64,000 nt of DNA from Stutzerimonas stutzeri. GTDB lineage: Bacteria; Pseudomonadota; Gammaproteobacteria; Pseudomonadales; Pseudomonadaceae. A model generated the notes under the pieces. The model was not told the origin of the DNA, did no database searches, and worked only from the letters and a program-made list of their open reading frames with translations. A program made the position numbers and the translations under genes. The stretch spans positions 1-64,000 of the forward strand of contig NZ_JAMOIH010000004.1 of NCBI RefSeq assembly GCF_024448955.1, given 5' to 3'. Every line of letters begins with the position of its first letter. Positions within the stretch are counted from its first letter, which is position 1. Positions 1 to 14,473 of the stretch are shown piece after piece.

Positions 1-219
1 TGAACGACGAATAACGCCATACGGCGTTGCGGGACTTGGCAAGGGAGCAACCATTACCTGCGTCCCGCGCCTTGCCTGGCGACATTTGGCGCAGCAACGC
101 GGCTCGCAACGAAACGTCAACAGCCCCTTACGTTCTGCCTGTATCACTGACATCCCGTCTGCAGCGTTACAACCGAAACAAGAAACTTGTGGCGCTATGG
201 CACGATAACGAGAATTTCC

Positions 220-639
220 ATGTCCCCTAATGTTCTGAATATCGCCACAGCCTGCCTGTTCAACGAAGCCGGTCACATATTGGTCGTACGCAAGCGCGGT
301 ACACGCCTATTCATGTTGCCGGGCGGCAAGATCGAGGCGGAAGAAACACCGTTGCAAGCGTTGCGGCGCGAGCTGCATGAGGAGCTGGGTTTACGGATCG
401 AGGAATCGCAACTGCAGGCGCTTGGGCATTTCCAGTCACGCGCAGCCAACGAGCCAGATCACTGGGTTGAAGCAGACGTTTTCGTAGGCCGTGTTGAAGG
501 CGAGGTACAGGTACAGGCAGAAATCGAAGCGCTGGACTGGCTGGTACCTCGTACGCAGCAGCAGGAACATCTCGCCCCGCTGTTGCGCGAACAGGTACTT
601 CCCGCTCTGCTCCAGCGGCTAGCAGCGGAAGAAAGTTGA
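220..639 (+). CDS. NUDIX hydrolase (MutT-like)
   Basis: The protein has 139 residues and one NUDIX domain. The Nudix box is complete: GGKIEAEE, then REL and EELGL in the G-x5-E-x7-REU-x-EE-x-GU arrangement, at about residues 36-59. Such enzymes hydrolyse nucleoside diphosphates linked to another group; the substrate cannot be read from sequence. I chose the ATG at 220, which gives the usual beta-strand start of the fold. A TTG in frame at 187 would add 11 residues and has no better ribosome site. The gene stands alone, convergent with a small minus-strand gene. Confidence 0.88.
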   Translation: MSPNVLNIATACLFNEAGHILVVRKRGTRLFMLPGGKIEAEETPLQALRRELHEELGLRIEESQLQALGHFQSRAANEPDHWVEADVFVGRVEGEVQVQAEIEALDWLVPRTQQQEHLAPLLREQVLPALLQRLAAEES

Positions 640-667
640 CACACCATCATCTGGTGCTGGCGCTAGG

Positions 668-814
668 CTATGGAGAGATGGGATCACTTGCCGGAAAGGT
701 TTCTTCTAGCGCCTCGTCCAGCTTATCTTCATCGGCCTCGTCTGGACGGCGTTTGATCTGGTCTTCTTGATCTGATGCCGGCTGGGCAGGTTGATTCGAG
801 TCTTTGCCGTTCAT
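668..814 (-). CDS. Small acidic protein of 48 residues, FPASDP type
   Basis: An ATG at 814 is preceded by a strong ribosome site (AGAGGAG, 5-6 bases upstream) and opens a 48-codon frame ending in TAG at 668. The product is very polar: an N-terminal half rich in Asn, Gln and Asp, then KRRPDEADEDKLDEALEETF and the tail PASDPISP. Small bacterial proteins ending in an EETFPASDP-like motif recur widely as uncharacterised proteins (from memory). It has no signal peptide or membrane segment. The perfect Shine-Dalgarno site and the conserved-looking tail argue that it is real. Function is unknown. It lies just beyond the end of the rsmZ transcript and is read in the same direction. Confidence 0.72.
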   Translation of the reverse strand: MNGKDSNQPAQPASDQEDQIKRRPDEADEDKLDEALEETFPASDPISP

Positions 815-1345: not shown

Positions 1346-2344
1346 TTAGTGGAACAGGGATTCGCTCGACAGACCGTTACGCTCGAAGATCTCGCGTAAC
1401 CGCTTAAGCGCTTCGACCTGAATCTGCCGTACCCGCTCACGAGTCAGCCCGATTTCCTGGCCGACCTCTTCCAGCGTGCAGCTTTCATGGCCGCGCAAAC
1501 CGAAGCGCCGGATGACCACCTCGCGCTGCTTCTCGGTCAGGTCGGACAGCCATTGGTCGATGCTTTCCGACAGATCGTCGTCAAGCAGCAGATCGCAGGG
1601 ATCGCTGGGCCGGTCATCGGTCAGGGTATCGAGCAATGTTTTGTCGGTGTCCGGCCCGAGAGACACGTCCACGGAGGTCACGCGCTCATTCAGCCCCAGC
1701 ATCCGCTTGACCTCCGCGACCGGCTTCTCGAGCAGGTTGGCGATTTCCTCCGGGCTGGGTTCGTGGTCAAGCTTCTGGGTCAGCTCGCGCGCGGCACGCA
1801 AGTAAACGTTCAGCTCCTTGACCACGTGAATCGGCAAGCGAATGGTGCGGGTCTGGTTCATGATCGCCCGCTCGATGGTCTGCCGAATCCACCAGGTGGC
1901 ATAGGTAGAAAAGCGGAAGCCACGCTCGGGATCGAACTTCTCGACAGCCCGTATCAGCCCCAGGTTGCCCTCTTCGACCAGGTCCAGCAAAGACAGCCCA
2001 CGGTTGACGTAGCGCCGGGCGATTTTCACCACCAGTCGCAGATTGCTTTCGATCATGCGCTTGCGCCCTGCCGGATCACCCTTCTGAGCCAGACGTGCGA
2101 AATGCACCTCTTGCTCGGGAGTCAGCAGGGGAGAAAATCCGATTTCGTTGAGATACAGCTGAGTGGCGTCGAGCGCACGGGTGTAGTCGATGAACTTGTG
2201 TTGCTTGAGGGTCGCGGTCTTGGATCGGGTGCCCGTTGAACCGGCGCGGGAGATATCGCTGACTGGATCGGCGTCCGCGGACGGTTCCATGAGTAGAACG
2301 GCATCGTCTACGTCAAACTCCGGCACTTCTTTTTTGAGAGCCAT
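1346..2344 (-). CDS. rpoS: RNA polymerase sigma factor RpoS (sigma-38)
   Basis: RpoS directs stationary-phase and general stress transcription. The product has 332 residues, normal for Pseudomonas. Region 1.2 begins near [17 protein letters not shown], region 2 includes the -10 recognition helix with YATWWIRQ, and region 4 ends in a helix-turn-helix ([19 protein letters not shown]). I chose the ATG at 2344 ([14 protein letters not shown]), which matches family N-termini; the longer frame adds 16 atypical residues. nlpD lies just upstream, and rpoS promoters commonly lie inside nlpD. Through RsmZ/RsmA its neighbour may also influence stationary-phase control. Confidence 0.98.
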
Positions 2345-2442
2345 TATTGTTTTCCTGTTCTGAGTTCGACAACAGGCTCGGGCGGCACGCACTCCCTGGT
2401 AACGCTCAAGCCCCTCCTAGTACCGGAACAGGTAGTAGCAAA

Positions 2443-3288
2443 TCAGCGCTTTGGCAGGTATTGCAGAGGATCCACAGGTTTGCCTTGACGGCGAATCTCA
2501 AAATGCAGCTTCACCCGGTCGGTTCCAGTCGATCCCATCTCGGCAATGGTCTGCCCAGCTTTGACTTGTTGACCCTCCTGAACCAGCAGCCTGCGGTTGT
2601 GGCCGTAGGCACTTACATAGGTATCGCTGTGCTTGATGATCACAAGTTCGCCGTAACCCCGTAAACCACTGCCGGCGTACACAACAGCCCCATCAGAAGC
2701 AGCTAAAACAGGCTGTCCTAATTCCCCGGCGATATCAATGCCTTTATTCAAACTGCCGTTTGAGGAAAAACGACCGATTACAGCGCCGTTCGTAGGCCAG
2801 GCCCAACCGCTTGCAGAGCGCGCCACAGACTTGACTGGCGTAGTCGCAGCGGGAGGCTTGGCCGCCGGTACGCTGGGCCTCGTCAGCGGTGGCGGAATGG
2901 GCACGGGCGTAGTCACCACGGATGGCGATGTGCTGGCTGGCGGTGTGGGCGCAGGAGTCGGACGAGCGGCTACTGCCCGGGATTGAGTATGCCGAGTGAA
3001 GCGAATCGCCTGTCCCGGATGGATGACGTGCGGCGGGGGAATATTGTTGACTTGAGCCAGCTCCCGCCAATCCCAACCGAAGCGAAAGGCAATCGACCAA
3101 AGGGAGTCACCCCGTTGGACAATATAGTGGCCGCTGGTAACACGGTCGCGGCTGTTGCGATCGACGACATGTACGCCTCCGGACGGAGGACTGGCGCAGC
3201 CAGCAAGTAACGCACCCGCGAGCAGCGCGACAAGCGCACAACGTAAAGGCGGAATGCTCATCCACCGCATGCTAGCTGTGGCCTTCAC
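2443..3288 (-). CDS. nlpD: Lipoprotein NlpD, LysM and degenerate LytM (M23) domains
   Basis: This outer-membrane lipoprotein activates amidases that split septal peptidoglycan. It has a signal peptide with lipobox LAGC, a LysM domain (YIVQRGDSLWSIAFRFGW) and a C-terminal LytM domain. The first metal-binding His is replaced (NKGIDIAG instead of HKGIDIA) and the HxH motif is reduced to KLHFEI, so it should be an activator, not an enzyme. The start is a GTG at 3288 with AAGGAG six bases before it. The middle is a Pro/Thr/Ala-rich linker. The product has 281 residues. Confidence 0.93.
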   Translation of the reverse strand: MKATASMRWMSIPPLRCALVALLAGALLAGCASPPSGGVHVVDRNSRDRVTSGHYIVQRGDSLWSIAFRFGWDWRELAQVNNIPPPHVIHPGQAIRFTRHTQSRAVAARPTPAPTPPASTSPSVVTTPVPIPPPLTRPSVPAAKPPAATTPVKSVARSASGWAWPTNGAVIGRFSSNGSLNKGIDIAGELGQPVLAASDGAVVYAGSGLRGYGELVIIKHSDTYVSAYGHNRRLLVQEGQQVKAGQTIAEMGSTGTDRVKLHFEIRRQGKPVDPLQYLPKR

Positions 3289-3317
3289 GACGCGCTCCTT
3301 TTGATCGACAAGGCCGT

Positions 3318-4253
3318 TCAGACCGTTTGCACCGATGGCTGGCGCCGCCCGGCGAACCATTCGAGACCAAGGACGAGAACGATACCAACTACTGCCAGTG
3401 CTATCGCCAGCGCGAGTTGCGGGTCCTGTCCAGTCAGCTCGGCATAGGCGCCAGGCAGCAGGTTCTGCTCCAGCATCGGGATACGCTCGCCATGGGAGTC
3501 AATGCGCCAGGTCAGCGTCTCCTTCCATGGCCAAACCTTGTTCAGCGAACCCAGCATCAGGCCCGTAAGGAAGGTCAGCGTGAGGTCGCGCCAACGGTCG
3601 AGCATCCAGCTCAGCACACGGGCGAAACTGAGAATGCCCACCAGACAACCTGCCGCAAAAATCGCCATGACGGCTAGATCTAGATCCTTCACCGCGCTGA
3701 GTACGACCGGATACAGTCCCAGCAGCACAAGAATGAAGCTACCGGAGATGCCCGGCAGGATCATCGCGCAGATTGCAATGGCACCTGCGAAAAACAAACT
3801 CAAACTACTGCTGCTCCACTGCATCGGAGCGGCCACAGTTATTACGTAGGCGAAGACGACACCAAGGATCAGACCGACGATGCGTGACAGATCCCAGCGC
3901 TGAATCTCTTTGCCGACAAGATGCACCGAAACCAGTATCAGACCGAAGAAGAACGACCATACCGGGATTGGGTGTGCTTCCAATAGATAGGTGATCAGCT
4001 TCGCGAGGCTGAACACGCTGGTAAGAATTCCGCCGAATAGAACCAGAAGGAAATTCGCATTTGCCGTCGCCCATGCTTCCCGAATGCGGCCACGAAACAA
4101 TAGCATCGCAGCGCCGGGTATAGCGCCGATCGACCGCAGCAATTCGTCATAGATGCCGGTAATAAAAGCGATGGTACCGCCAGAGACTCCCGGCACCACA
4201 TCCGCCGCGCCCATCGCGATGCCCTTGGCGTACAACAACAACGTGTTTTTCAT
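3318..4253 (-). CDS. DUF368 membrane protein, PopT-type polyprenyl-phosphate transporter
   Basis: The product has 311 residues with about eight to nine hydrophobic segments. Two related Gly-rich motifs, PGVSGGTIAFITGIYDELL near the N-terminus and PGISGSFILVLLGLY in the middle, are the DUF368 signature. DUF368 proteins (PopT) were shown in other bacteria to return undecaprenyl phosphate across the inner membrane; the same role here is inferred from family membership. The ATG at 4253 has GGAAGG upstream. It lies between nlpD and pcm, tightly spaced in the same direction, so it is probably cotranscribed. Confidence 0.87.
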   Translation of the reverse strand: MKNTLLLYAKGIAMGAADVVPGVSGGTIAFITGIYDELLRSIGAIPGAAMLLFRGRIREAWATANANFLLVLFGGILTSVFSLAKLITYLLEAHPIPVWSFFFGLILVSVHLVGKEIQRWDLSRIVGLILGVVFAYVITVAAPMQWSSSSLSLFFAGAIAICAMILPGISGSFILVLLGLYPVVLSAVKDLDLAVMAIFAAGCLVGILSFARVLSWMLDRWRDLTLTFLTGLMLGSLNKVWPWKETLTWRIDSHGERIPMLEQNLLPGAYAELTGQDPQLALAIALAVVGIVLVLGLEWFAGRRQPSVQTV

Positions 4254-4270
4254 GCTTCCTTCCGCTGAGA

Positions 4271-4951
4271 TCAAACTACAGGTCCATTGAGCAGCGGCAC
4301 GAAGCGTACGGTATCCAGCAGATGGCGGGAAAAACCGTCTTCCTCTCGAATGATCAGCATCAGTTGCTGGACTTCGCCCACCCCGACCGGAATCACCAGC
4401 CGCCCGCCGGGAGCCAGTTGATCGAGCAAGGCTTGTGGCACGTCGGCTGCCGCCGCGGTAACGATGATGCCGTTATAAGGTGCCAATGCAGGCCAACCTT
4501 CCCAACCATCACCCCAGCGAAAGACCACATTACGCAATTTGAGTTCGACCAGACGCTCTTTTGCACGATCCTGCAGCGCCTGGATGCGCTCGACCGAGAA
4601 CACCCGTTCGACCAGTTGTGCCAGCACAGCGGTCTGATAACCGGAGCCGGTACCGATTTCCAAGACCTTATCCAGCGGGCCGTCCGCAAGCAGCAGCTCA
4701 CTCATGCGCGCGACCATGAACGGCTGCGAGATGGTCTGGTTGTGACCGATTGGCAGCGCGGTGTCTTCGTAAGCGCGATGCGACAGCGCCTCGTCGACGA
4801 ACAGATGACGCGGCGTGCGTCGAATGACCTCAAGCACGCGAGGATCGGACAGGCCCTCCTCATACAACCGCTGAATCAGGCGATCGCGGGTGCGCTGCGA
4901 AGTCATGCCGGTGCCGTGGCGCAGCAGATCATCTTGTCCACGGTGATTCAC
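4271..4951 (-). CDS. pcm: Protein-L-isoaspartate O-methyltransferase
   Basis: Pcm uses S-adenosylmethionine to methylate isoaspartyl residues and start repair of damaged proteins. The SAM motif [15 protein letters not shown] and the upstream [11 protein letters not shown] are plain. Start choice: a GTG at 4951 overlaps the surE stop (GTGA) and has GGAGGA six bases upstream, giving 226 residues. The ATG at 4906 ([10 protein letters not shown]) gives the 211 residues common in Pseudomonas but lacks a clear ribosome site. I give the longer form. Confidence 0.95.
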
Positions 4952-11138: not shown

Positions 11139-12038
11139 ATGAATCGCTGGGAAGGTCTCGACGAATTCGTCGCCGTCGCCGAATGCGGCAGCTTCATGCG
11201 GGCCGCCGAGCAATTGCGGGTATCGTCCTCCCACGTCAGCCGCCAAGTGGCGCGCCTCGAAGAGCGCTTGCAGGCCCGCCTGCTCTACCGCACCACGCGC
11301 CGCGTCTCGCTGACCGAGGCAGGGCATACCTTTCTTTCCCGCTGCCAGCGCTTGATCGAAGAGCGCGACGAAGCCTTCCATGCCATCAGCGACCTGCACG
11401 CAGCACCCACCGGGCTACTGCGCATGACCGCAGCCGTGGCTTACGGCGAGCGCTTCATCGTGCCGCTGGTGAACGAGTTCATGGCGCAGCATCCGCAATT
11501 GCGGGTCGAGATCGAACTGTCCAACCGCACCCTGGACTTAGTGCAGGAGGGCTTCGATCTGGCCATACGCTTGGGCCGGCTCAGCGAATCGCGGCTAGTG
11601 GCGACCCGCATCGCGCCACGAGCCATGTACCTCTGTGCCGCGCCGGCCTACCTCGAACGCTACGGGCGTCCGCACACACTTTCCGAACTAGCGCGGCACA
11701 ACTGCCTGGTGGGCACGGGCGATAGCTGGATGCTGCAGGTCGATGGTCGCGAGCAGCCGTTCAAACCCAGCGGCAATTGGCGTTGCAATAGTGGCCAGGC
11801 GGTGCTGGACGCCGCCTTGCGCGGCTTCGGCCTCTGCCAGCTGCCGGACTATTACGTGCAGGAGCCGCTGCGCCGAGGTGAGCTGGTGTCGCTGCTGGAA
11901 GCCAATCAGCCACCCAATACCGCCGTCTGGGCCGTCTACCCGCAGCGCCGCTATCCGCTGCCAAAGGTGCGCCTGCTGATCCAGGCATTGAAGCAAGGCC
12001 TGGCCAGTCGCCCGGAATACCGCAGCGGACGCAACTGA
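11139..12038 (+). CDS. LysR-family regulator of formaldehyde detoxification
   Basis: The 299-residue protein has an N-terminal winged HTH (LDEFVAVAECGSFMRAAEQL, then SSSHVSRQVARLEERL) and a substrate-binding domain. The ATG at 11139 follows AAAAAGGAG; the longer upstream frame is not needed. Its divergent position to adhC-fghA matches GfnR of P. aeruginosa, which controls glutathione-dependent formaldehyde neutralisation; the assignment rests on synteny. The 121-bp shared gap should hold its site, but I could not define a clean one. Confidence 0.9.
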   Translation: MNRWEGLDEFVAVAECGSFMRAAEQLRVSSSHVSRQVARLEERLQARLLYRTTRRVSLTEAGHTFLSRCQRLIEERDEAFHAISDLHAAPTGLLRMTAAVAYGERFIVPLVNEFMAQHPQLRVEIELSNRTLDLVQEGFDLAIRLGRLSESRLVATRIAPRAMYLCAAPAYLERYGRPHTLSELARHNCLVGTGDSWMLQVDGREQPFKPSGNWRCNSGQAVLDAALRGFGLCQLPDYYVQEPLRRGELVSLLEANQPPNTAVWAVYPQRRYPLPKVRLLIQALKQGLASRPEYRSGRN

Positions 12039-12169
12039 AGTGCTACGGCGCCGCGCGTCTGACTGCCTATTTCAGGAGGAACCCGCCTCCGTAGGCCACG
12101 TCGATATTGTGTAGCCGGTGCCCTTTGCGTTTGCCTGGAGCTACCCGGCGATTCAATCAGGAGGACATC

Positions 12170-12484
12170 ATGCAGATTCTGGTGAACAGCAATCACAGCG
12201 TCAGCGTAACCAGCAACCTCGAGGAGCACCTGAAAGCAACTGTGGAGAGTGAGCTGGAGCGTTTCGATGATCAGCTGACCCGAGTCGAAGTTCATCTCAA
12301 CGATGAGAACAGCGGTAAAAGCGGCCCCCAGGACAAGCGTTGCCAGATGGAAGCCCGAGTGAAAGGCCATGAGCCGATTTCGGCCACCCACAAGGCGGAC
12401 TCCATGACGCTCGCCATCGACGGCGCCGCGGAAAAGCTCAACCATGCCCTGGCGCATGCCCTGGACAAACTCAACCATCACTGA
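12170..12484 (+). CDS. HPF/RaiA-family ribosome-associated protein
   Basis: The 104-residue product has the beta-alpha-beta-beta-beta-alpha pattern of hibernation factors: an N-terminal strand (MQILVNSNHSVSV), an acidic helix (LEEHLKATVESELERF), and a basic patch with KRCQMEARV before the final helix. HPF/RaiA proteins bind the 30S decoding centre and silence or dimerise ribosomes. AGGAGG lies 5 bases before the ATG. Pseudomonads normally carry a separate hpf next to rpoN, so this would be a second paralogue. It lies 70 bp before a release-factor-like gene, same direction. Confidence 0.85.
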   Translation: MQILVNSNHSVSVTSNLEEHLKATVESELERFDDQLTRVEVHLNDENSGKSGPQDKRCQMEARVKGHEPISATHKADSMTLAIDGAAEKLNHALAHALDKLNHH

Positions 12485-12554
12485 CCCGTCACTTGCCGAA
12501 CCAGGCCATCAATGCCCGAGGGACCGAACCACCCGATTACGAAAGAGGCCATGC

Positions 12555-13721
12555 ATGAACAGATTGCTCGATCGCGAAACCATGTCCCAGCTGCTGGCGA
12601 AGCGCGAGGCGCCATGCCTGTCGCTGTACCAGCCCACCCACCGCAGCTTTCCCGAGCGCCAGCAAGACCCGATCCGCTTCAAGCACCTGGTGCGACAGCT
12701 GGAAGATTCTCTCAAACAGCAAGGCCGAGGAGATCAGGCCAAATCGCTGCTCGAGCCGTTTTACGCGCTGATCGATGACGTCGACTTCTGGAACTCCAAC
12801 CGCGACGGACTGGCTGTGTTCGGCGCCAAGGACTATTTCGAGGTGTTCCGCCTCCAGCGCAACGTACCTGAGCTGGCGGTCGCCAATGATCGTATGCACC
12901 TTAAGCCGCTGCTGCGCATTGCCCAATCCGCCGATCGTTACCAGATCCTCGCGATAACGCTGGATTCGGTACGCCTGTTCGAAGGCAACCGCGATGGTGT
13001 CGATGAAGTTCCGCTTGCCGACGGCGTACCGAAGACTGTGGAAGAGGCACTTGGCCGCGACCTGACTGAGAAAGGTCAAACAGGATTTCCGCAAGGTTAT
13101 AGCCGCGCCAGCGAGCGTGGCGACCCCATGCAGGTTGAAAGCGGCGGGGCCGGGCGACAGGACGAAATCGATCGAGACCGAGAACGCTTCTTCCGCGAAG
13201 TCGATCGCGCCTTCCTTGAGCATCACAGCCGCAAGACCCGACTGCCGCTGATTCTCGCTGGACTCGCAGAACACCAGTCCCACTTCCGCAAGCTCAGTCA
13301 CAACGAGTTTCTGTTACCCGACGGTATCGAAAACGATGTCTCCCTGCTCAGTCGGGACGAGCTGCGAGAAAAGAGTTGGATGGTAATGCAGCCGCGTTAT
13401 ATCAAACGCCTCGAAGGATTCATCAACCAGTACGGCGAATCGCACGGTCAAGGTCTGGCCACCGATCAGCTCGAACAGATCGGTCAGGCGACTCTGGAAG
13501 GTCGGGTGGCGACGTTGCTGGTCGAAGCTGATCGGCAGATACCGGGGATGGCGGACAAGCAGGAAGGCAAGGCGATAGCGGTCGACGATGGGTCAGCCAC
13601 CACACCCGATCTGCTCGACGAGTTGACGATCTGGACGTTAGAACAAGGCGGCGAAGTGATCTCGGTGCCCACCGAGCGTATGCCAACCGCGAGCGGCGCG
13701 GCGGCGATCTACCGCTACTGA
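12555..13721 (+). CDS. Archaeo-eukaryotic release-factor-like protein (baeRF type)
   Basis: The 388-residue product starts MNRLLDRETMSQLLAKREAP, followed by LSLYQPTHR. It resembles bacterial proteins annotated as baeRF family 3, distant relatives of eRF1 and Pelota (recalled from sequence pattern, not searched). No GGQ motif is seen. A Gly-rich segment with GGAGRQDE near residue 198 sits where such a loop might be, and the C-terminal part (TLLVEADRQIPG, EQGGEVISVP) looks like an L7Ae/eRF1 domain 3. AAAGAGG precedes the ATG at 12555. The HPF gene just upstream suggests a joint role on stalled or idle ribosomes, which is inference. Confidence 0.68.
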   Translation: MNRLLDRETMSQLLAKREAPCLSLYQPTHRSFPERQQDPIRFKHLVRQLEDSLKQQGRGDQAKSLLEPFYALIDDVDFWNSNRDGLAVFGAKDYFEVFRLQRNVPELAVANDRMHLKPLLRIAQSADRYQILAITLDSVRLFEGNRDGVDEVPLADGVPKTVEEALGRDLTEKGQTGFPQGYSRASERGDPMQVESGGAGRQDEIDRDRERFFREVDRAFLEHHSRKTRLPLILAGLAEHQSHFRKLSHNEFLLPDGIENDVSLLSRDELREKSWMVMQPRYIKRLEGFINQYGESHGQGLATDQLEQIGQATLEGRVATLLVEADRQIPGMADKQEGKAIAVDDGSATTPDLLDELTIWTLEQGGEVISVPTERMPTASGAAAIYRY

Positions 13722-13780
13722 TCAGTCACCGCCACGAAACTGCGAAAGAATCGCGCTTCACGACGCACAGCGCTGCGCAA

Positions 13781-14473
13781 TCACGATTGCCAGCGCTGCT
13801 GCAGCCATTGCAGATCTTCTGGACGCGTGATCTTTAAATTATCTGAGCGCCCTTCTATCAGCCGCGGACTGAATCCCGCCCATTCCAGCGCGGACGCTTC
13901 ATCAGTAACGGCTGCACCAGCTTCGAGCGCGTTGGTAAGCGCATCGCGTAACGCCCCGAGGTGAAACATTTGCGGTGTGAAAGCCTGCCATATCACGCTA
14001 CGGTCGATGGTTTCCACGACTCGTCCGTCGGCACCTGCTCGTTTCAAAGTGTCGCGAGCCGGTACGGCGAGTAGCCCACCGACTGGATCGTCGCCCAGTT
14101 CGGCCAGCAGTTTGTCGAGATCCTGACGCGAGAGATTGGGCCGAGCGGCATCATGCACCAGCACCCAGTCGCCGTCTCGTGCGCCTAGCTCGGACAGACG
14201 ATGTAGCCCGGCCAGTACCGAGTCTGCACGTTCGGCGCCGCCGTCAGCGCGTTGAATGCGAGGGTCCTTGGCGCAGTCCAGACTCGCCCAGTACGGATCA
14301 TCGGCGGCCAAGCCGACGACCAACCCAAGCAAACCGGGATGGTCGAGAAAACAGCTGAGCGTATGTTCGATGACGCTCTTGCCGGCCAAGGGCAGGTATT
14401 GCTTAGGCCGATCGGCGCGCATGCGGCTACCGACACCGGCAGCCGGTATCACGGTCCAGAACTCCGGGAACAT
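13781..14473 (-). CDS. ispD: 2-C-methyl-D-erythritol 4-phosphate cytidylyltransferase IspD
   Basis: IspD joins CTP to methylerythritol phosphate, the third step of the MEP pathway. The 230-residue product has the CTP-binding loop IPAAGVGSRM-x3-RPKQY and the conserved LVHDAARP. It lies 8 bp downstream of ftsB in the same direction. Confidence 0.97.
   Translation of the reverse strand: MFPEFWTVIPAAGVGSRMRADRPKQYLPLAGKSVIEHTLSCFLDHPGLLGLVVGLAADDPYWASLDCAKDPRIQRADGGAERADSVLAGLHRLSELGARDGDWVLVHDAARPNLSRQDLDKLLAELGDDPVGGLLAVPARDTLKRAGADGRVVETIDRSVIWQAFTPQMFHLGALRDALTNALEAGAAVTDEASALEWAGFSPRLIEGRSDNLKITRPEDLQWLQQRWQS

Follow-up and report, generated by a model that had tools for sequence, protein, structure and literature searches.

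The window analysed here, a stretch of 64,000 nucleotides from Stutzerimonas stutzeri, carries a gene for a small hibernation factor of the HPF/RaiA type (raiA) followed by a gene for a protein of baeRF family 3, the family of the ribosome hibernation factor Balon. We consider it highly probable (about 90%) that this pair constitutes a stress operon encoding ribosome hibernation factors of the Balon type. The idea of such a pairing is already published. According to the sections cited of the report in Nature 2024, Balon is an A-site hibernation factor of Psychrobacter whose genes lie most often beside raiA, Balon and RaiA bind one ribosome, and Balon-bound ribosomes are hibernating, with RaiA present in state 1 (PMC10901736). 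In 2019, Burroughs and Aravind had predicted a link to HPF and a non-catalytic role in the A site for baeRF-1, in the part of their study used here (PMC6514570). The locus in the window is a divergent member of this known system, and what it adds is the divergent family member itself, an apparently dedicated RaiA partner, and a putative promoter. The features of the locus, all on the forward strand, are as follows.

12078..12103, forward: promoter-like element GGAACC-N15-CGTCG (which can also be written GGAACCC-N14-CGTC or GGAAC-N16-CGTC), starting 92 nt upstream of the raiA ATG.
12170..12484, forward: raiA, an S30AE (HPF/RaiA) protein of 104 aa, CxxEAR subfamily, without a C-terminal tail; ATG start preceded by AGGAGG.
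12485..12554, forward: intergenic spacer of 70 bp, which holds the GAGG of the second gene.
12555..13721, forward: balon-like gene, baeRF family 3, 388 aa with three predicted eRF1-like domains; ATG start with a weaker GAGG.
12636..12674, forward: predicted decoding-centre segment THRSFPERQQDPI, residues 28-40, aligned with THREHPANDQDPI of Balon.
13074..13151, forward: predicted disordered loop, residues 174-199 (pLDDT <50), aligned with the place of the Balon lasso; it reads GGAGR, not GGQ.
13713..13718, forward: C-terminal Arg387-Tyr388, aligned with Arg368-Tyr369 of Balon.

Coordinates and profiles agree with the earlier note on this DNA, which had read the locus as a 104-residue HPF/RaiA-type protein and a 388-residue baeRF-like protein encoded in the same direction 70 bp apart. 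Its statement that both genes have good ribosome-binding sites holds for raiA (AGGAGG) and has to be toned down for the second gene with its weaker GAGG. In the mechanical list of open reading frames the second frame extends from 12444 (425 aa) and overlaps raiA; the start at 12555 was adopted, and the homologous frames are able to open at the same residue, their starts having been picked near that of the query and so not being independent of it. A simple scan revealed no terminator-like site between raiA and the balon-like gene, and a sigma-70 scan no sigma-70 promoter-like site in the region 11900-13800. Judged from the sequence alone, the two genes may be co-transcribed. The LysR and IspD neighbours were identified by profile, and for three other neighbours we assume the names frmA, frmB, and ftsB. 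A functional tie of the pair to the frmA/frmB-like (formaldehyde), LysR, or IspD genes was considered and rejected, as the lysR and ispD flanks persist in the 6 of 56 genomes of the genus that are devoid of baeRF3.

The assignment of the longer protein rests on profiles and on its predicted structure. It matches PF18845 (baeRF_family3) over the whole model (residues 128-317, E 5.7e-45, 154.1 bits, cut-off 31.5), and PF18845 likewise is the best profile for Balon of Psychrobacter urativorans (E 4.6e-30, 105.6 bits). On NF052287, the NCBI equivalog model for Balon ("AOC03_06830 family ribosome hibernation factor"), the protein reaches 166.8 bits, less than the cut-off of 330, and it is therefore filed here as a baeRF family 3 or Balon-like protein and not as an AOC03_06830 equivalog; these comparisons do not certify its equivalence to Psychrobacter Balon. 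A phmmer search of the PDB retrieved Balon of P. urativorans (8rd8_B, E 1e-17, residues 9-388) as the sole strong relative in sequence. A profile built from 64 relatives found the same chain (E 4.4e-37); the mycobacterial Balons (E 0.14 and 0.37) and archaeal aRF1 (0.8) were insignificant matches of this profile, ranking behind a designed protein (0.016). An AlphaFold model, computed from the window protein and the loci of the named scan only, has a mean pLDDT of 81.2 and a pTM of 0.72. In comparisons of this model by Foldseek and VIA-align, Balons occupied ranks 1 to 6 with Z scores from 27.7 to 20.6. The best match (8rdw_B; Z 27.7, 351 aligned residues) has an rmsd of 5.8, and this high value probably reflects a rotation of domains. 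Next came aRF1/eRF1, with Z scores of no more than 14.9, and Pelota/Dom34, with about 10-11. By sequence and by predicted fold, the 388-aa protein thus is a member of baeRF family 3. The eRF1/Pelota-like (baeRF) nature proposed in the earlier note was borne out by two of the checks that it had named, the search with baeRF profiles and the structure prediction, and similarity was found at each level: to PF18845, to 8rd8_B in sequence, and in fold to Balon and then to eRF1 and Pelota.

With P. urativorans Balon (AOC03_06830; PDB 8rd8, 8rdv, 8rdw) the window protein shares the family, an alignment over the full length, the three eRF1-like domains, and the lack of a GGQ motif, and the Balon paper, as far as cited, also places Balon genes typically next to raiA (PMC10901736). 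The two differ in that overall identity is 21-23%, the window protein scores below the equivalog cut-off and has a longer lasso region, and phenylalanine replaces the histidine of the HP motif. The mycobacterial Balons Msmeg1130 and Rv2629 (PDB 8v9j, 8v9k, 8v9l), which are A-site hibernation factors too, resemble the model in fold (Z 25.1 to 20.6), whereas they are 14-17% identical to the window protein and belong to separate NCBIfam models. The three-domain fold is also common to aeRF1 and Pelota/Dom34, but unlike these the window protein is bacterial, has neither GGQ nor NIKS, and is linked to a hibernation factor.

The similarity to Pelota/Dom34 could mean that the protein takes part in non-catalytic rescue or recycling of stalled ribosomes, which RaiA would then take over once they are split or vacant. 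A non-catalytic role in rescue or shutdown was indeed proposed for baeRF-1 in the part of the 2019 study used here (PMC6514570). However, the Balon structures match far better than Pelota/Dom34, Balon-bound ribosomes are hibernating and contain RaiA in state 1 in the portion cited of the Balon paper (PMC10901736), and the gene for the hibernation factor is linked repeatedly, in both gene orders, among the best 80 named loci (see below). We therefore regard a rescue function as improbable. The earlier note had suggested a ribosome-silencing or ribosome-rescue module; of these, silencing is consistent with the role in hibernation measured for the baeRF3/Balon family, according to the passages cited (PMC10901736), and with the missing GGQ, and rescue fits less well.

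How regularly the two genes occur together depends on the distance from Stutzerimonas. The closest named loci are 94-88% identical and assign the window to the Stutzerimonas group (best 80 named loci). A baeRF3 gene was found in 50 of 56 genomes of the genus, one copy each, always between a LysR gene and ispD (50/50), and raiA lies directly upstream in 47 of these 50 loci; the exceptions with balon and without raiA are L033, L050, and L053. Thus, the two genes are not rarely adjacent within the genus, the outcome that the earlier note had named as speaking against the pair. Both genes are absent from the locus in the other six genomes, five of which have a short lysR–ispD gap. In the sixth (L056) the gap is filled; an unrelated ORF of 305 aa occupies positions 2282-3199 (+) there. 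The family survey detected a baeRF3 match in 65 of 198 genomes, and outside the genus raiA was next door in 4 of 35 loci and not found in the flanks of the other 31, which extended over about 1.1-1.3 kb in L094-L099 and L104 and up to 4 kb in the rest, less at contig ends; L125-L133, which make up nine of these 35 loci, score 132-148 bits and represent distant members. One of these, L133 from another genus of the family, shows a different neighbourhood: a weak baeRF3 gene (28% identical; 2215-3387, minus strand) lies divergently beside a gene for an RtcB RNA ligase (PF01139, E 4.8e-111; 3718-4821, plus strand). RtcB is named among the neighbours of Balon in the part cited of the Balon paper (PMC10901736).

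In a class-wide sample, 14 of 369 genomes passed the Pfam cut-off (12 of the 26 genomes in the scan scored below it and were left out as Balons), and outside the genus an S30AE gene was adjacent at 5 of 12 loci and absent at 7. Among the best 80 named loci, which lean to near relatives and whose flanks measure at least 326 nt, 51 have an S30AE gene in the same orientation at a distance of up to 600 nt (33 upstream, 18 downstream), one more has it in the flank, and 28 have none. Here, L146-L167 were taken as members of the genus at an identity of at least 72%, including two with Pseudomonas species names and several MAGs titled Pseudomonas sp.; the loci outside the genus (L168-L225) were paired in 31 of 58 cases, 13 with the S30AE gene upstream and 18 downstream. 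Paired records include Spirochaetes, Synechococcus, Trueperaceae, Anaerolineae, Nitrospirota, and Planctomycetota, many of them as MAGs. The S30AE profile used to find neighbours consisted of seven sequences, four with CxxE[AV]R, and other types of linked RaiA may be under-called in these counts. The raiA–balon pair is not obligate. That both gene orders occur across many phyla speaks for a recurrent functional pairing more than for shared ancestry alone.

The partner gene encodes an S30AE protein according to PF02482 (E 2.4e-12, 47.8 bits, cut-off 23.7) and TIGR00741 (HPF/YfiA family; 49.7 bits, cut-off 40.9). The genome contains four S30AE genes beside a single gene each for baeRF3 and RMF, and the designation of raiA as a hibernation-factor paralogue in the earlier note was correct. 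The nearest PDB match is the "ribosomal subunit interface protein" 7m4z_v (E 4e-16), which we take to be from Acinetobacter baumannii; it belongs to the S30AE family and has CxxEAR in common with the window protein. All 51 linked RaiA proteins among the best 80 named loci contain C-x-x-E-[AV]-R, which in most of them follows a stretch of DEN type. In the genome of the window, the canonical Hpf lacks CxxE[AV]R, differs from the linked RaiA with 28% identity, and is encoded next to an rpoN-like gene (L001), the name rpoN being our assumption. Two further paralogues from this genome (L003, C9:990-1298, and L004, C4:213052-213363) belong to the CxxEAR subfamily, show 57% and 56% identity with the linked RaiA, and have C-terminal tails (about 140 aa in total); no GGAAC-N15-17-CGT was found at their loci. 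In six Pseudomonas loci (L175, L177, L179, L182, L208, L214) the linked RaiA is closer to the C9 paralogue than to the linked RaiA of the window, and so different members of the subfamily adjoin Balon in different genera.

Subfamily and Balon also occur in the same genomes. A subfamily profile of 22 rows scored over 110 bits in 11 of the 369 class genomes, and eight of these are shared with the 14 Balon genomes (Fisher p 6e-11); the partner is missing from the remaining three genomes with the subfamily and six with Balon. The 110-bit cut was picked after the gap in the scores had been seen, and a looser cut (17 genomes) again gave eight shared genomes (p 8e-9). Without the genus of the window, six genomes are shared between 12 with Balon and nine with the subfamily (p 2e-8). 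The RaiA that was resolved beside Balon in 8rd8 (chain D) lies outside the linked subfamily, with 25.6 bits on the profile versus 115.9 for 7m4z_v. Since it represents another S30AE subfamily than the window RaiA, a joint occupancy of the ribosome by Balon and RaiA of the window type would follow by analogy only.

One could still suppose that raiA and balon are chance neighbours whose products act alone, and that their adjacency in the genus is inherited synteny. All 50 genus copies do share one locus, and 31 of the 35 family copies in other genera have no raiA next to them. This reading is nevertheless very unlikely: adjacency recurs in many phyla with raiA on either side (33 upstream and 18 downstream among the best 80 named loci), the RaiA subfamily co-occurs with baeRF3 in the sample of 369 genomes, and 6 of the 56 genomes of the genus lack both genes together at this locus.

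The residues with which Balon touches the ribosome are partly retained. Twelve residues, including Glu26, His27, and Pro28, are listed as contacting drug-site rRNA, and Arg368-Tyr369 touch A1067 and A1095 of the 23S rRNA, in the part cited of the respective study (PMC11317432). In the alignment, five of the twelve are identical in the window protein (Pro28=P33, Gly176=G197, Gly296=G316, Arg368=R387, Tyr369=Y388) and seven are changed (Glu26 to Ser, His27 to Phe32, and also Ser177, Asp178, Lys207, Asn344, and Asn345), with the contact list taken from the same part of that source (PMC11317432). Across 64 aligned sequences, R387 is invariant (64/64), P33 is kept in 63, and the last position is Phe or Tyr in 61. 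The HP motif of Balon reads Phe-Pro in the window; among the 64 relatives HP occurs 31 times and FP 25 times.

As the earlier note had observed, the protein has no GGQ: string searches found neither GGQ nor NIKS in it, nor GGQ in any of the 50 homologues from the genus. The missing motif argues that it is not a release enzyme. At the lasso tip, which by alignment would correspond to the GGQ place of eRF1, the window protein has GGAGR and distant relatives mostly GHGG[KR]; GGQ does not occur at this place in any of the 64 rows. The surrounding loop (residues 174-199) varies in length among relatives and was modelled with very low confidence. Outside the genus, some baeRF3 members hold a GGQ string elsewhere in the protein; such strings occur in 15 of the best 80 named loci, at residue 90 (n=1), 184-186 (n=4), or 357-372 (n=10), none of them at the aligned GG. 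That the protein is an alternative peptidyl-tRNA hydrolase using another residue of the loop is hardly credible, because the loop is disordered and variable and GGQ is missing from its position in all 64 rows, even though a double glycine (G197-G198) sits at the presumed eRF1 position, a glutamine occurs in the second-Gly column of L199 (GHGQ) and five residues past the first Gly in the window (GGAGRQ), and a few baeRF families retain a glutamine according to the part of the 2019 study used here (PMC6514570).

The element upstream of raiA is conserved throughout the genus. Its spacing is identical in 48 of 50 loci and one nucleotide longer in L049; the 190-nt slice from L032 does not contain the element, but a matching site (G001:C1:294148) was located some 240 nt ahead of raiA. 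In 37 distinct sites the boxes are invariant and the 14-nt spacer is 47% identical, where GGAAC and CGTC were the criterion by which sites were selected and the CC after GGAAC was not. The element is kept in the three genus loci without raiA (L033, L050, L053), and also in L170-L172 from Pseudomonas luteola, duriflava, and asuensis, whose sites have the same sequences as those of L094-L096. In this Pseudomonas luteola group it is located 256-259 nt upstream of balon, leaving no room for raiA, as if raiA had dropped out and the promoter had stayed. Related forms exist at the same locus in other genera (L099, L104, L124), and several other loci of the family, such as L108, L110, L111, L115, L116, and L120, gave no match to a regular expression over 260 nt.

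In form, the element resembles promoters of ECF sigma factors. The AlgU consensus is GAACTT-N16-17-TCtgA or TCcaA in the parts cited of two studies (PMC3819740, PMC3247240); the window site reads GAACCC-N16-TCGAT, and many relatives have GAACCC-N16-TCG[AT]A. As CC stands in the -35 region where the AlgU consensus has TT, the element is called AlgU/RpoE-class only. The genome does contain an AlgU/RpoE gene (328.5 bits, cut-off 236.15), and upstream of this algU-like gene a GGAACTT...GTC match with shorter spacing was found. A looser AlgU expression had no match on the plus strand of the window. The sequence does not prove that AlgU itself drives the element.

Taken as a Balon-type stress operon, the locus would function as follows. 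Judging by the motif, transcription probably begins at a promoter of the ECF-sigma (AlgU/RpoE) class some 90 nt before raiA, and envelope or general stress would induce the module independently of the ordinary Hpf and RMF. RaiA would fill the mRNA channel and decoding region of the small subunit, and by analogy with Psychrobacter the Balon-like protein may bind the same 70S ribosome and recruit EF-Tu, so that the ribosome would be vacant, inert, and protected until regrowth. A broader proposal is more tentative, and we hold it to be possible though somewhat doubtful: this bacterium may possess two hibernation pathways, RMF/Hpf on the one hand and on the other a CxxE[AV]R RaiA that co-evolved with baeRF3/Balon across phyla and is encoded in an AlgU/RpoE-class operon, through which envelope damage, and not starvation alone, would park ribosomes via the A site.

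Stutzerimonas is an easily grown, mostly environmental genus, for which a literature search retrieved no paper on ribosome hibernation. The genome of the window combines a Balon-type module and partner RaiA with RMF and Hpf, so both hibernation routes could be compared in one system. Should the promoter and the partner subfamily be confirmed, they would show when the cell produces Balon and which of its several RaiA paralogues cooperates with Balon, two questions to which the cited parts of the literature gave no answer. The linked CxxE[AV]R subfamily, the upstream element, and the score below the cut-off with the His to Phe exchange were likewise not found in the cited parts of the Balon and baeRF literature, and we make no claim that they are unpublished.

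The support for the element is its recurrence at the same places, not its abundance. The exact pattern GGAACC-N15-CGTCG has seven sites in the genome of the window versus 25 for the reversed control, and the six sites other than that of raiA–balon lie inside or at the end of ORFs. In the 56 genus genomes, GGAACCN{15,16}CGTCGWA, a pattern that the raiA–balon site of the window (CGTCGAT) does not fit, yielded 98 sites versus 202 for the reversed control; 54 genomes have a site, and 37 exactly two. A large regulon was therefore rejected, the pattern not being over-represented genome-wide against reversed controls. A second recurring site, GGAACC-N15-CGTCGAA (L065, 1501-1528; C6:144447-144474 in the genome of the window), is located upstream of ppa, the gene for inorganic pyrophosphatase. 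At a distance of 119-157 nt from the pyrophosphatase frame, it overlaps or touches the end of a Peptidase_M90 (MtfA-like) gene or follows shortly after it, and it precedes ppa in all 20 further genomes of the genus that were chosen (L257-L276), including the Balon-less G007, G016, G028, and G044. Its -35 part falls within the coding end of the MtfA-like gene, and coding constraint may help to retain it. Upstream of the MtfA-like gene, L065 contains an ORF with sigma-70 region 4 (3-668, plus strand; PF08281, E 2.3e-13).
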